A stretch of DNA of 64,000 nt from Brevibacillus brevis (lineage in GTDB: Bacteria > Bacillota > Bacilli > Brevibacillales > Brevibacillaceae). The stretch lies in contig NZ_CP041767.1 in the NCBI RefSeq assembly GCF_022026395.1, forward strand, positions 5,210,001 to 5,274,000, written 5' to 3'. Under the pieces are notes generated by a model. The model made no database searches. It saw only the letters and a list, made by a program, of their open reading frames with translations, and was not told the DNA's origin. Below are positions 45,902-49,587 of the stretch, piece after piece; position 1 is the stretch's first letter, and every line of letters begins with the position of its first letter. The translations under genes and the position numbers were made by a program.

Positions 45902-47005
45902 ATGAGCCCGCCTCTCCTTTCCCTATGCATGATCGTCAAAGACGAAGCAGACCAGATCGAAGCATGCCTGTCCAGCGTGCATATGGTGGCAGACGAGATC
46001 ATTGTTATCGATACAGGATCAACCGATGGTACACAGGATATTTGTCGGAAATACGGGGCGAAAGTTCTGGAGATTCCTTGGGAAAACAGCTTTGCGAAAG
46101 CGAGAAACGCCGGATTGGAGGTTGCCAAGGGAGAGTGGATTTTATGGCTGGATGCAGATGAAATCGTACAAGAAGAAAAGCCGGGGGTGCTTCGTCAAGC
46201 TATAAGTGCCAGCAAAAGCGACGCCTTTTTTATGAAAATGATCCATTACACTGGCTCGCAAAAGGAGCAAGCTTCGCGCCACTCCGCCTACCGATCCGGG
46301 CAAGTCCGCTTATTTCGCAACAAAAAAGGATTTCGATTTGTGCGCGACATACACGAAATTCTTCAATGGCCGACCACCGCTTCGAGAGATATCGCTATCC
46401 CTTTGCTACCTGTACATATTCACCATCTCGGATATATGGACGATGCCGTTCAACGAAAACAAAAAGCTTTGCGCAACTTGAGGCTCTTACGTCATGAAAG
46501 AAAGAAATCCAAGCAAGACCCGTGGTGCGATTACCATCTCGCAAACGAATTTTTTCGCGCCAAACAATTTGAATATGCATTTACACTGGTGAATCAAGCA
46601 ATGAAAGGCTTTTTAACCACCCAAAAACCTCCCCCGTCCATTTGCTACAAGCTGAAATTCGATATTCTTTTCCAGCATGGCAGCATGCGCGGAGCATGGC
46701 CGGGGATTGCACGAGCTATTCAAATCTACCCCAATTACGTAGACCTTCATTTTTACAAAGGCGTTTTCCTGATGGAGCATGGTCTGTATGCCGAGGCGGT
46801 AAAAGCTTTTGAGTATTGCTTGGAGATCGGGGACAATCAGTGGGAGCATTTTAGTGAGCAAGGAATGGGGAGCTTTTACGCTTTTCACTTTTTGGGACGA
46901 TGCATGGAGCGCATGGGCAAGACACATGAATCCCTTGTCTACGATTACACAGCGAGCTCCATACATGCTTCGCACTTCGGAAAAAAGCGAGAGGTGGTGC
47001 TATGA
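45902..47005 (+). CDS. Family 2 glycosyltransferase with TPR-like C-terminus
   Basis: A 367-residue paralogue of the divergent neighbour. It has LCMIVKDEADQIEACLSSV, IIVIDTGSTDGTQDI and the DAD motif in ILWLDADEIV, then a helical TPR-like second half (FFRAKQFEYAFTLVNQAMKG, YKGVFLMEHGLYAEAVKAFE). The ATG follows AAGGTGATC. It overlaps the next glycosyltransferase gene by four bases, so the two are coupled. It likely adds one sugar in a short chain on spore-surface collagen; the acceptor is inferred from the locus. Confidence 0.88.
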   Translation: MSPPLLSLCMIVKDEADQIEACLSSVHMVADEIIVIDTGSTDGTQDICRKYGAKVLEIPWENSFAKARNAGLEVAKGEWILWLDADEIVQEEKPGVLRQAISASKSDAFFMKMIHYTGSQKEQASRHSAYRSGQVRLFRNKKGFRFVRDIHEILQWPTTASRDIAIPLLPVHIHHLGYMDDAVQRKQKALRNLRLLRHERKKSKQDPWCDYHLANEFFRAKQFEYAFTLVNQAMKGFLTTQKPPPSICYKLKFDILFQHGSMRGAWPGIARAIQIYPNYVDLHFYKGVFLMEHGLYAEAVKAFEYCLEIGDNQWEHFSEQGMGSFYAFHFLGRCMERMGKTHESLVYDYTASSIHASHFGKKREVVL

Positions 47006-47886
47006 GCGTGAAAACAAGCGTGCTAATTGGCAGTCCAGTTTGTCAGAAACCAGATGTTCTCCGGATGTTTTTGTTTTCGTTAGAAAGGTTGTCGACCTCA
47101 AACTTGACGTTGCATTATTTGTTCGTCGATGACAATAACGATCCGCATTCGAGCAATATCCTTCAAAACTTTGCAGACAAACACACGGGCCAGGTCGACA
47201 TTATCCCCGCTGCTAGCAACCTCCATCCTTACACATGCGATGAGAGGGCCCATTACTGGAGCGAAGCACTCGTATGGAAGGTCGCTGGATTCAAAGACGA
47301 AATGATCGCCCGCGCCAAACACCAAGATTACGATGCCCTCTTCCTCATCGATTCGGATTTGCTTCTCCAGCCAGCCACTTTGGAAGTTTTGCTCGCCTCT
47401 GACAAAGAGATCATATCTGAAATCTTCTGGACGAGCTGGACACCAGATACCGTCCCCGTCCCTCAGGTGTGGCTCAAAGACGAATACACCCAATTCGAAT
47501 GCGCACGCCATGAACAAATTTCCTTGGAAGAACAGTACCTGCGGAAATACGCTTTCTACGGACAACTTCGTGTCCCCGGCGTATATGAGGTAGGTGGTTT
47601 GGGAGCCTGCACCCTCATCCGCAGAAAAGCGCTGCAAGCTGGCGTCAGCTTTAGGCAAATTTCAAACCTGAGCTTCTGGGGAGAGGACCGTCATTTCTGC
47701 GTCCGGGCGCAGGCTTTGGGTTTGTCCCTTTTTGTGGATACACACCATCCCGCTTTTCATCTCTATCGGGAGAGTGACTTTGCGGAAGCGCGAACCTGGA
47801 TGAAGCAAATCTATGGCTCCGCTCCTTTACGCGTGAAAACCACTCGTCCTCCTGTCATCAACAATACGATCCCCCTTGGAAATTAA
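47002..47886 (+). CDS. GT-A fold glycosyltransferase
   Basis: A 294-residue protein of the GT-A type. It begins TSVLIGSPVCQKPDVLRMFL, has a DxD motif in ALFLIDSDLLLQPATLEVLL, and a GGLGACTLIRRKALQAGVSF block and GEDRHFC near residues 195-235 that fit the acceptor and catalytic-base region. No membrane segment. Its ATG overlaps the stop of the upstream glycosyltransferase gene (ATGA). It is the last gene of the two-gene unit; the promoter of the structured RNA begins within its last codons. Probably a partner in the same spore-surface glycosylation pathway. Confidence 0.82.
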   Translation: MSVKTSVLIGSPVCQKPDVLRMFLFSLERLSTSNLTLHYLFVDDNNDPHSSNILQNFADKHTGQVDIIPAASNLHPYTCDERAHYWSEALVWKVAGFKDEMIARAKHQDYDALFLIDSDLLLQPATLEVLLASDKEIISEIFWTSWTPDTVPVPQVWLKDEYTQFECARHEQISLEEQYLRKYAFYGQLRVPGVYEVGGLGACTLIRRKALQAGVSFRQISNLSFWGEDRHFCVRAQALGLSLFVDTHHPAFHLYRESDFAEARTWMKQIYGSAPLRVKTTRPPVINNTIPLGN

Positions 47887-47904
47887 CCTATTATATGGTA
47901 TGCT
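47876..47904 (+). promoter_or_regulatory. Promoter of the structured leader RNA
   Basis: TTGGAA (47876-47881), 17-base spacer, TATGCT (47899-47904). Transcription would start near 47911, just before the closing stem of the RNA. It overlaps the end of the glycosyltransferase gene. Confidence 0.6.
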
Positions 47905-47910
47905 GGCGAC

Positions 47911-48198
47911 ACGTCTATTTGGATGGAAAGGTACGGTAACTACGTATGCCAACAACTACTTTGTAATGGCCTAAAAAACTGGATAGCTTGCCCTTCGGAA
48001 AACAAACGGTTTTTCGCACAGGTGCAGTCTGCCCTTTTTTCCCATTACAAAGGAACGTAACGAAATCTGTAGGTGTATATCCTAACGGAGGTTCGCTATG
48101 GGGAATCTCCGTTTTTTTGTGTTCAAAAACAGGCCTGCCCTACAGGACATCCAAATAGAAGATGCGTTCCTTTCACTTTTTAGACGAGGTGAAGGACC
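47911..48198 (+). ncRNA. Structured leader RNA / candidate riboregulator of the S4-domain gene
   Basis: Several long perfect helices are nested without conflict. P1 is TCTATTTGGATG (47914-47925) with 48148-48159 (12 bp). P2 is CTTTGTAATGG (47959-47969) with 48042-48052 (11 bp), containing a further 8-bp hairpin (47996-48003 with 48009-48016). P3 is CTGTAGG (48067-48073) with 48139-48145, enclosing an intrinsic terminator. A small hairpin lies at 47930-47950. After P1 another hairpin (48168-48176 with 48189-48196) pairs with the ribosome site of the S4 gene. The motifs of the common riboswitch classes were not recognised. It may be a cis-regulator (by ligand, or by the S4 protein itself) or a trans-acting RNA of about 210 nt ending at the terminator. 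Confidence 0.65.
48084..48118 (+). terminator. Intrinsic terminator inside the leader RNA
   Basis: Stem 48084-48094 with 48103-48113 (11 pairs, one G-U), 8-base loop, then seven T. It lies 81 bases before the S4 gene, so most transcripts may stop here unless read-through is allowed. Confidence 0.88.
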
Positions 48199-48705
48199 AT
48201 GCATACCATCGAGCATACGTGGGTATTACGTGAAAATCATGAGAATCAGCCAGTGCGGCGATATTGCAGCAATTGTGGGCGAACCGTTCTCTTCTTCGAT
48301 ACAAACATCCGCCGCCACAACGCAAACGGCAAAAACATCTATCGCTTCGCTATCTATAAATGCGAAAAAAATCATACGTGGAACGAAAAGCTCGCCATCT
48401 ATAAAGCCTTTACAGATCATCGGGAGGTGCCGGATACGGAGTTCAGTGAAGAGATCGCGCCCCTCCTCCCTATGCTCCCCTTGCATGAATACCAGGAAAA
48501 GGGCGTTCAGAAAGTGACGATTCGAATTGAGAGCGCAGAGGCCCGCTTCCGCCTCGACAAACTGCTGTCCGAACAGATAGAAGGTTGGAGCCGCAGCCAG
48601 ATTGTCCGCAAGATCAAGGACGGGCATATTCGCCTGAATGAGCAGGAGACGAAGCCAAGCGCTGTCTTGAGTGCAGCGGATATTATTCAGATTTTGATTA
48701 GGTAA
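48199..48705 (+). CDS. Zinc-ribbon plus S4-domain RNA-binding protein
   Basis: A 168-residue protein. The N-terminal half looks like a small zinc-binding module (Cys23, Cys26 in YCSNCGR; Cys55, His59 in YKCEKNH). The C-terminal 55 residues are an S4 domain: FRLDKLLSEQIEGWSRSQIV, then a KIKDGHIRLNEQETKPSAVL strand pair. S4 domains bind structured RNA, often rRNA. The ribosome site GAGGTG before the ATG is part of a hairpin and is preceded by a large folded leader with a terminator, so expression is probably controlled at the RNA level. The target RNA is unknown; autoregulation through the leader is a possibility, as for ribosomal protein S4. Confidence 0.75.
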   Translation: MHTIEHTWVLRENHENQPVRRYCSNCGRTVLFFDTNIRRHNANGKNIYRFAIYKCEKNHTWNEKLAIYKAFTDHREVPDTEFSEEIAPLLPMLPLHEYQEKGVQKVTIRIESAEARFRLDKLLSEQIEGWSRSQIVRKIKDGHIRLNEQETKPSAVLSAADIIQILIR

Positions 48706-48718
48706 CAGTATGTATGGA

Positions 48719-48750
48719 AAAAGTCGCAGACGGAATCTGCGGCTTTTCTT
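48719..48750. terminator. Bidirectional terminator between the S4 gene and the phage amidase gene
   Basis: AAAAGTCGCAGA (48719-48730) pairs with TCTGCGGCTTTT (48736-48747), and T follows on both strands. It is the left border of the tail-cluster transcript. Confidence 0.88.
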
Positions 48751-49587
48751 TTATTTCTTCAATACGACCGCTTTTCTCGGCTCGTCCCACTCCACTTGCA
48801 GTCCTAGTAAGGCAGCAAGCTCTCTTGTTTTCGCAAAAGCAGTTCCCTGGTCGTTTACATAGGAGACTTCCTGTCCGTTCACGGTCACTTTTTGCGTGGA
48901 AGGCTCCCATTCCACTGCTCCACCCACTGCCTCCGCAATCATTCGGATGGGTACATAGGAAACATCATCGATTAGTTTTCCTGTGGAGGTAAGTTTCAGT
49001 TCAACTGCGCACTTATCCACATCAGGCTGTGGTTTTTGTGGATAAGCTGTGAGAAACCTGTGGACATCCTGTTGAAACTTTGCCCATGCGTCCTTCGCTG
49101 GCATTCCCGTATAGGTTTGCGCGGTCGTATTGACGACAAAAAAGGCCGGGCAGTTTTTCCCCGTAATGTCGTAATGACGCCACAGGTGCTCGACTCCCCA
49201 GCCATGTCGCTTCAAGATATCCGCGGTCAGTGCCACTGTTTGCTCGTACATTTTCGCAAAGCTTCCATCTGCATTGACGCACATTTCAATCCCAATCGTG
49301 CAGTTGTTCGGGTAGTTGCTCAATTTGGTCAAGGCGGCCTGTGAATAAGTCTGCGCCCCGACGTGGTAGCCCATCTCGTCCTCGGGTAGACAGCGAATGA
49401 TTTGCTTGTCGTCCACGATGTAATGAGCACTAGCTACTGTCGTTGGTTTGTTGAAGTAGTTTCGGTTTGCCACGGCATTTGCGCCGCTGCGTTCGTTGGC
49501 CGTCCAGTGGATGACGACTCCTTTTGGGACGATCTTCTTTTTGGGGCGGGAATTTACGTTGGTCAAAAGCATCTCGGTGATATTCAT
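48751..49587 (-). CDS. N-acetylmuramoyl-L-alanine amidase (endolysin)
   Basis: A 278-residue Amidase_2 protein. The zinc site is visible as GVVIHWTANERS (His), RHYDITGKNCPAFF (His and Cys), with the usual YHVGAQTYSQ and GIEMCVNADGSF between (residues 1-185). The C-terminal 80 residues are a copper-amine-oxidase N-terminal-like (stalk) domain, VSYVPIRMIAEAVGGAVEWE, in place of the usual SH3 or LysM wall binders. It cuts the amide between muramic acid and L-alanine. Without a signal peptide it depends on the holin encoded next to it. XlyA is the PBSX counterpart. Confidence 0.9.
   Translation of the reverse strand: MNITEMLLTNVNSRPKKKIVPKGVVIHWTANERSGANAVANRNYFNKPTTVASAHYIVDDKQIIRCLPEDEMGYHVGAQTYSQAALTKLSNYPNNCTIGIEMCVNADGSFAKMYEQTVALTADILKRHGWGVEHLWRHYDITGKNCPAFFVVNTTAQTYTGMPAKDAWAKFQQDVHRFLTAYPQKPQPDVDKCAVELKLTSTGKLIDDVSYVPIRMIAEAVGGAVEWEPSTQKVTVNGQEVSYVNDQGTAFAKTRELAALLGLQVEWDEPRKAVVLKK

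Follow-up and report, generated by a model that had tools for sequence, protein, structure and literature searches.

A conserved leader with a short upstream reading frame before an S4/zinc-ribbon gene of Brevibacillus brevis is probably a ribosome-mediated attenuator

In translational attenuators of the ermC type, a ribosome stalled on the leader peptide exchanges a 1:2/3:4 fold for a 2:3 fold, by which the Shine-Dalgarno (SD) sequence is freed. The leader of the ARE-ABCF gene vmlR of Bacillus subtilis is described as having a short upstream open reading frame (uORF) in the first stem, which is an anti-antiterminator, followed by a terminator and a hairpin over the SD, each of which can be undone by an alternative pairing (PMC9226507). 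Conserved short uORFs, antibiotic-induced stalling and attenuation are reported for the leaders of cplR, VmlR2 and LsaA of Clostridioides (PMC10201436). Here, we analyse a leader in front of a gene for an S4/zinc-ribbon protein in a stretch of 64,000 nucleotides of Brevibacillus brevis (contig NZ_CP041767.1), referred to as the window, whose numbering is used throughout. An original prediction, made from the letters alone, had singled out this leader as a candidate for an undescribed regulatory RNA. In our assessment it is quite probably a ribosome-mediated attenuator governed by the uORF MPTTTL-stop, a stalling sensor that brings about antitermination and SD release.

Compared with ermC-type leaders, the present one has an intrinsic terminator between strands 2 and 3. 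By plan, it resembles the vmlR leader as far as that source describes it, having a short uORF inside the first stem, a terminator, an SD hairpin, a putative antiterminator and a putative SD-freeing pairing in the readthrough RNA. Of this kind of device, a short conserved uORF with SD, its location in a 5' stem that competes with a switch strand (D, Table 1) and a terminator before the gene were found here, as was an SD hairpin (P5) with a competing pairing (P4), where P4 is unsupported in the register of the window and P5 is weak on the pairing map described below. It differs from vmlR in the uORF, which in vmlR comprises the three codons MIN, in the gene family, and in having P2b as a long arm and P1 and P3 as a frame. 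Its uORF consensus MP..(.)L is also distinct from the MR[I/M], MK[L/Q] and MAGN given for cplR, VmlR2 and LsaA (PMC10201436). No paper describing this leader was found in the open-access literature searched, as judged by titles and the beginnings of abstracts; the leader family, which has a uORF consensus and a set of genes of its own, is apparently undescribed, while the kind of attenuator is already known.

The uORF was revealed by comparison with relatives, in which the segment directly 5' of the 11-bp stem reads SD-n-ATG-CCN-...-TAA. Counting the window, 59 of 68 loci have the strict motif, ATG-CCN upstream of GTAATG; in these, ATG and TAA are 18 nt apart in 51, 15 nt in 7 and 16 nt in 1, and the stop is in frame in 58/59; the frame of the 16-nt case (L105) continues to MPIHTVMG. 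Peptides of the strict set were MPTFTL (11), MPTTTL (9), MPTFNL (7), MPSSM (2), MPANL (1) and others. The Pro codon varies at the third base only (CCA 56, CCG 2, CCC 1), the stop is TAA in 59/59, and the last residue is Leu in 56/59 (TTG 43, CTG 13). An M(T)P type of uORF was recognised in six of the nine non-strict loci, wider shapes being MTPVIKVMDTNR, MTTPNKKVMIKSY and MPSQKTMHSKK. In total, it occurred in 64 of 67 loci, which stem from a scan of one genome per species (84,980 species); 63 were obtained via a wide pattern and L052 via the strict search. No M(T)P uORF was found in L108 and L110, and L112 is truncated at a contig end. The 63/67 of the wide pattern compare with 2/67 in the reverse complement and a mean of 1.98/67 (maximum 5) in 50 Markov shuffles, and for the six wider-shape loci the pattern matched 6/6 vs. 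0.26/6 in controls. In two leaders outside the 67-locus set (L139, L141), the start is TTG instead of ATG and Pro is retained.

In the window, two further frames are open, one starting at 47922 and one following the uORF stop; they are broken or shifted in the relatives read, and both were put down to chance. As a separate observation, three loci from Clostridia (L100, L107, L109) have, by reading, a second uORF starting MI.TLP after an M(T)TP uORF, at the place expected for the strand that pairs with the anti-SD, and L115, from the Bacillota metagenome-assembled genome (MAG) JPAS_maxbin.115, has tandem M-P uORFs (MPSIA, MPANNLSNLN), between which a hairpin and a T-run were seen by eye.

The stems proposed in the original prediction, of 12, 11 and 7 bp, together with an 8-bp hairpin, an 11-bp terminator and a hairpin over the ribosome site, were all recovered from inverted pairs and the minimum free energy (MFE) fold, the latter including the 8-bp internal hairpin and the hairpin covering the ribosome site; the perfect 11-bp P2 sits inside a longer inverted pair of 18 nt (83%). 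The MFE of the 326-nt leader was −105.8 kcal/mol vs. −80.2 kcal/mol (standard deviation 5.1) for 100 shuffles, none of which was as good (z −5.0). Ten terminator-like sites were found on both strands of 47700-48850 (shuffle mean 1.0), the leader terminator among them. That the stems nest without conflict holds for those listed, which are compatible, but not for a perfect 9-bp pair, 48049-48057/48165-48173, which clashes both with the 11-bp stem and with the hairpin over the ribosome site and which forms part of the switch. The good promoter that had been assumed was not recovered, since a sigma-70 scan of 47700-48850 gave no match on the + strand and a candidate was picked by eye (Table 1). 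No known riboswitch signature was encountered, in agreement with the original prediction: none of the 4227 families of Rfam 15 matched the window at gathering score, and the single match in 47700-48400 (E 4.6) was far under its cut-off. With the covariation in relatives, the assignment as a structured regulatory leader outside Rfam stands, and we regard the leader as real and under selection.

Table 1. Features of the leader and of the gene behind it, with positions in the window.
Feature	Position	Strand	Basis and remarks
Candidate promoter TTGGAA(47876)-17-TATGCT(47899), extended -10 TGG	47876..47904	+	By eye, 8/12 matches, below scan threshold; inferred
P1, 5' strand	47914..47925	+	12 bp, 100%; covariation rank 7/2485; 89.1% of cells paired
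SD-like GGAAAGG of the uORF, 14 nt from ATG	47925..47931	+	Read from sequence
P2a, 5' strand TACGT, adjoins uORF start, partner 48055-48059	47941..47945	+	Own-vs-permuted pairing; exact pairs read from sequence
uORF ATG CCA ACA ACT ACT TTG TAA (MPTTTL-stop)	47946..47966	+	Conserved M-P uORF; start and stop within first stem
P2, 5' strand CTTTGTAATGG, contains uORF stop	47959..47969	+	Inverted-pair search; compensatory changes
P2b, variable arm atop P2 (47984-47997/48019-48032)	47984..48032	+	Covariation rank 5/2485
P2, 3' strand CCATTACAAAG	48042..48052	+	Inverted-pair search; compensatory changes
Switch strand D AAAGGAACGTAACGAAATCTGTA, partners P2a/AT/P4	48049..48071	+	Pairing tests across leaders
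P3, 5' strand	48067..48073	+	7-bp stem; covariation rank 10/2485
Intrinsic terminator (T), arms 48084-48094/48103-48113, then T-run	48084..48118	+	11 nt, 91%; covariation rank 1
P3, 3' strand	48139..48145	+	Partner of 48067-48073
P1, 3' strand	48148..48159	+	Inverted-pair search
Anti-SD strand TGCGTTCCTTTCAC, partners D (P4, ON) and SD (P5, OFF)	48163..48176	+	9-bp pair; covariation
SD region of the S4 gene GAGGTGAAGG, in P5	48186..48195	+	Sequence, fold; P5 covariation rank only 54
Protein of 168 aa with a zinc-ribbon-like N part and an S4 domain (118-163), distantly related to DUF1062	48199..48705	+	Pfam, alignment, model
Terminator-like site 3' of the S4 gene	48719..48747	+	Terminator scan

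For a fold-free pairing map, each leader's own pairing was compared with that to other leaders' partners for all pairs of 14-column windows, using an alignment of 22 leaders (<88% identity) thinned from 52 by removing near-identical ones. The pairing tests omit the nine of 68 loci without P2 motif and two without a recognised SD; five leaders with insertions or a deletion were omitted from the alignment-based tests, four of which were restored for the motif-cut test and the covariance model. The motif-cut test retains the anti-SD segment of L064, wrongly cut from its insertion, and the helix boxes of the map were defined only after the map was seen. The best ranks among the 2485 column-window pairs were 1 (T), 4 (P4), 5 (P2b), 7 (P1), 10 (P3), 23 (P2a), 33 (AT, i.e., D with the terminator 5' arm), 36 (P2) and 54 (P5), and the first eight of these helices account for all of the top 50 pairs. 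The 2212 pairs outside the nine boxes had a mean of 0.01, a standard deviation of 0.31 and a maximum of 1.18. For P1, P2, P3 and T jointly, 83.7% of cells were paired and 55 cells were changed on both sides, each value being reached in 0/500 shuffles; the number of pair types was not unusual (59/500 shuffles). For P4 in the register of most rows, the corresponding values were 77.3% and 30 cells (each 0/500 shuffles). With motif-cut segments of 26 leaders, own pairing of P4, P2a and P5 exceeded all 20,000 permutations, and among 15 clade representatives the same was true of P4 and P2a, while reversed-D controls gave no signal (4058 and 17065 of 20,000 permutations). A clear compensatory case is Fictibacillus L092, with AGGAAATACAGC/GTTGTATTTCTT in place of AAAGGAACG/CGTTCCTTT. 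In line with the structured RNA of the original prediction, the helices thus covary or show compensatory changes in relatives. On comparative grounds, D (48049-48071) appears to have three mutually exclusive partners, namely the start of the uORF (P2a), the 5' arm of the terminator (AT) and the anti-SD strand (P4), AT and P5 being more weakly shown. A likeness of the D strand to H69-71 of 23S rRNA was absent in relatives and was dropped.

The conserved uORF, the helices, the three-way competition for D, the gene association and the occurrence of the leader before unrelated genes support the proposed attenuator. In the normal state, ribosomes would finish the uORF fast or leave it empty, P2 and P2a would close over it and sequester D, the terminator would form and most transcripts would end near 48118, and readthrough RNA would have the SD of the gene hidden in P5. 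In the induced state, a ribosome stalled on the uORF would block P2a and P2 and leave D free, which may pair first with the terminator 5' arm (AT), resulting in antitermination, and later, once the RNA has been extended, with the anti-SD strand (P4), upon which the SD would be freed and the S4/zinc-ribbon protein made; P1 and P3 would frame the device. We infer that ribosomes translate the uORF, that their stalling is what the leader senses and that the events follow this order, and likewise that induction comes from an antibiotic acting on the ribosome or from something that blocks early elongation in a similar way. When translation is disturbed, e.g., by an antibiotic, the switch probably activates production of a putative ribosome-binding protein, and because the gene would be kept off until ribosomes stall, its product is likely a rescue or resistance factor.

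Several points weigh against this mechanism. Conservation of the uORF could partly reflect RNA pairing, because the uORF stop lies in P2, and the SD-to-ATG spacing of 14 nt in the window is above the ideal. AT is a weak helix, its difference of 1.54 (rank 33/2485) being above every background pair though modest, and it is short in some leaders. P5, with 1.10, is below the best background pair (1.18, P5 rank 54); as it lies in the background tail, it rests on the motif-cut pairing test and the fold. For P4, the count of pairs with changes on both sides was not above shuffles (247/500), and the window's own register, shifted by one column in the alignment, was unsupported (450/500 shuffles as high); the own partner was the best of 15 in just 6 (P4) and 9 (P2a) cases. 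By eye, no clear anti-SD pairing was seen in leaders before GNAT genes (see below). In Bacillus sp. CH30_1T (L106), the whole P2b arm is absent about 250 nt 5' of the gene and P2 stands on a short loop. Folding with the uORF held open loses P2 and P2a, yet the terminator stays, in the window as well as in the leaders listed. Since the terminator persists in these static folds, antitermination rests on the covariation of AT and on folding order, and it is the weakest link of the switch model.

The leader is not tied to one gene family. Using a covariance model of the leader core (R1), built on 26 leaders, 34 matches were obtained in 398 genomes of the class. Twenty-five were located at the S4/zinc-ribbon gene, five before GNAT acetyltransferase genes (two Pfam-scanned, three alike by eye), two before classic DUF1062 genes (G074 and G341; 127 and 133 bits in Pfam) and one before an ASCH-like gene (G110; by eye, without a Pfam match and truncated by the contig end); a match in G139 (E 0.007) showed no uORF motif on reading and was dismissed. 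A Pfam scan of three of the GNAT/ASCH-like proteins behind the leader, one truncated at a contig end, revealed no S4 domain. In one genus (g33), 16 of 60 genomes gave leader matches; the eight leaders read have the uORFs MPDFS (6), MPDSL (1) and MPDFL (1), each before a GNAT-like frame, and the two Pfam-scanned proteins also contain pentapeptide repeats. By reading, the letters of P2a in this genus (ATTTCAGA/TCTGAAAT) are unrelated to those of the window.

This distribution bears on the mechanism favoured in the original prediction, i.e., autogenous control, where the S4 protein binds its own leader, e.g., at P2/P2b, and stabilises the closed form. Ribosomal protein S4 acts in this manner on its own mRNA, and the product of the present gene has an S4 domain (PF01479) with RluD, RluF and Hsp15 as structural neighbours; furthermore, the sequence of P2b varies with its pairing retained. 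However, the same leader before GNAT genes and one ASCH-like gene implies that it is not confined to the S4 gene, the conserved uORF would be superfluous, and the P2b arm is absent in L106. Because the same leader stands before different genes, S4 autoregulation was ranked second; we consider it improbable as the main mechanism, with binding of the S4 protein possible as an extra layer. Of the overall reading of the original prediction, the structured regulatory leader is thus retained and autoregulation as its main mechanism is given up.

A small-molecule riboswitch, in which P1-P2-P3-P4 would form a ligand-binding fold including the uORF-like motif, would account for the multi-helix fold, the pseudoknot-like P4, the very conserved letters TATGCC, TGTAATG and CATTAC, and the presence of the leader before several gene families. 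The conserved letters, however, comprise a start codon, a Pro codon with free third base and an in-frame stop after five to six codons (58/59), TTG replaces the start codon in two leaders, and Rfam is without a match. Six relatives (clostridial records and one Bacillota MAG) moreover keep the M(T)P uORF where the P2 motif search fails, and the riboswitch is regarded as highly improbable.

The uORF-governed attenuator also has a variant with the mechanism in common, in which the leader would respond generally to slow initiation or slow termination (e.g., a recycling or peptidyl-tRNA defect) and not to a drug, the uORF gauging the state of the ribosome and the S4 protein repairing it. This would agree with the constant uORF end (TAA in 59/59, Leu in 56/59) and with Hsp15, an S4 protein, being on the 50S subunit with peptidyl-tRNA according to the title of structure 8ap4. 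TAA and the last codon are, however, also constrained by P2 pairing, and inactivation of a drug would suit GNAT enzymes better; we hold a general sensor to be unlikely.

In the protein encoded behind the leader, C23, C26, C55 and H59 are invariant in the homolog alignment (A3), and the S4 domain matches PF01479 with E 5.6e-06. By sequence reading, it resembles DUF1062 (PF06353) in having a zinc-ribbon-like N part and an S4-like C part, but differs in that it aligns at residues 99-149 only, with 26.4 bits (cut-off 23 bits), vs. 127 and 133 bits for two classic members. Its predicted structure has a mean predicted local distance difference test (pLDDT) score of 82.7; Foldseek gave nothing at E ≤ 0.001 for the full-length model or the ribbon-only model. 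With VIA-align, the S4 part matched a chain of a mitoribosome assembly factor (Z 7.3), RluD (Z 6.8; also on pre-50S), RluF (Z 5.4) and Hsp15 (Z 5.1) over 53-68 residues. For the ribbon-only model (pLDDT 79.9), all of the 50 matches listed came from ribosome structures of archaea or eukaryotes (Z 3.9-4.8), and one of them has the label L44E; we take these matches to be eL42/L44e, which is a zinc protein located at the E site. This modelled likeness, with Z < 5 within the warning range of the tool, serves as a lead only; the match to the bL33 profile was weak (E 0.24).

More tentatively, the M-P uORF might be a sequence-specific sensor of an inhibitor, or of stalled early elongation, for which no dedicated leader is known, the genes behind the leader might form an unrecognised resistance regulon of Bacillota, and the S4/zinc-ribbon protein might be a new factor of the large subunit, with a ribbon similar to the E-site protein eL42 and an S4 part similar to RluD and Hsp15; we put this forward as a possibility short of a likely one. 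The leader places an uncharacterised family of putative ribosome binders in a functional context, the conserved MP..(.)L makes the identity of the stalling inhibitor directly testable, and one leader before unrelated genes would hint at intrinsic resistance genes that are invisible to sequence annotation alone.

By DNA search, the leader was detected in 17 of 60 genomes, the window's own among them; 16 of the 17 belong to the genus, which was represented by 26 genomes, and one belongs to another family. In the 398 class genomes, 26 had a clear homolog of the protein (E ≤ 1e-20, own included), from which weaker matches, mostly S4 parts of longer proteins, were excluded; R1 located the leader at the homolog in 25 of these 26. 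In the exception, G016, the homolog matches in two pieces and neither uORF nor P2 was found in the 500 nt upstream. The leader is single-copy in the genome, as revealed by a genome search, and this, together with its position at the homolog in 25/26 genomes, argues against a mobile element with inverted ends, which the original prediction had left as an alternative. Spread via plasmids or phages was likewise rejected, a plasmid search giving no match and a viral search no relative. Besides the window, a phylum sample of 299 genomes yielded one weak model match (G446, E 0.004). The 67 loci belong to Brevibacillus, Bacillus-like genera, Lysinibacillus, Fictibacillus, Lihuaxuella, Shimazuella, Geosporobacter, Clostridium and others; the leaders of one genome of the same genus (G014) and of Brevibacillus formosus (L049) are identical to that of the window over 380 nt.

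Among single loci, L034 (G054) has an intact leader and an in-frame TAA that separates the zinc-ribbon half of the homolog from its S4 half; in L099 (Ornithinibacillus bavariensis), a short transposase-like frame, recognised by eye, lies between leader and S4 gene; and the match of the S4 gene of L106 spans residues 20-124 only.

In two genomes of the window's genus, the classic DUF1062 genes (L150 in G024, L153 in G017) are without this leader. They share a different uORF, M[KR]RICDNPPFLFP..., which ends right before the SD of the DUF1062 gene, and UvrA-like ABC protein and rifampin-phosphotransferase-like frames were seen nearby by eye. Two open-access papers naming DUF1062 do so, in the parts seen, in expression tables only. 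In one such table, the ASCH gene BT1423 and the DUF1062 gene BT1426 of Bacteroides thetaiotaomicron, near in numbering, appear together, as far as the excerpt of the source goes (PMC10434189); ASCH-like and DUF1062 genes are also two of the gene types behind the present leader.

Inspection by eye of the neighbouring genes of 13 loci revealed no constant partner. In the window, two glycosyltransferase-family genes (PF00535) are found upstream in the 45902-47886 region, and a convergent N-acetylmuramoyl-L-alanine amidase gene lies downstream at 48751-49587.

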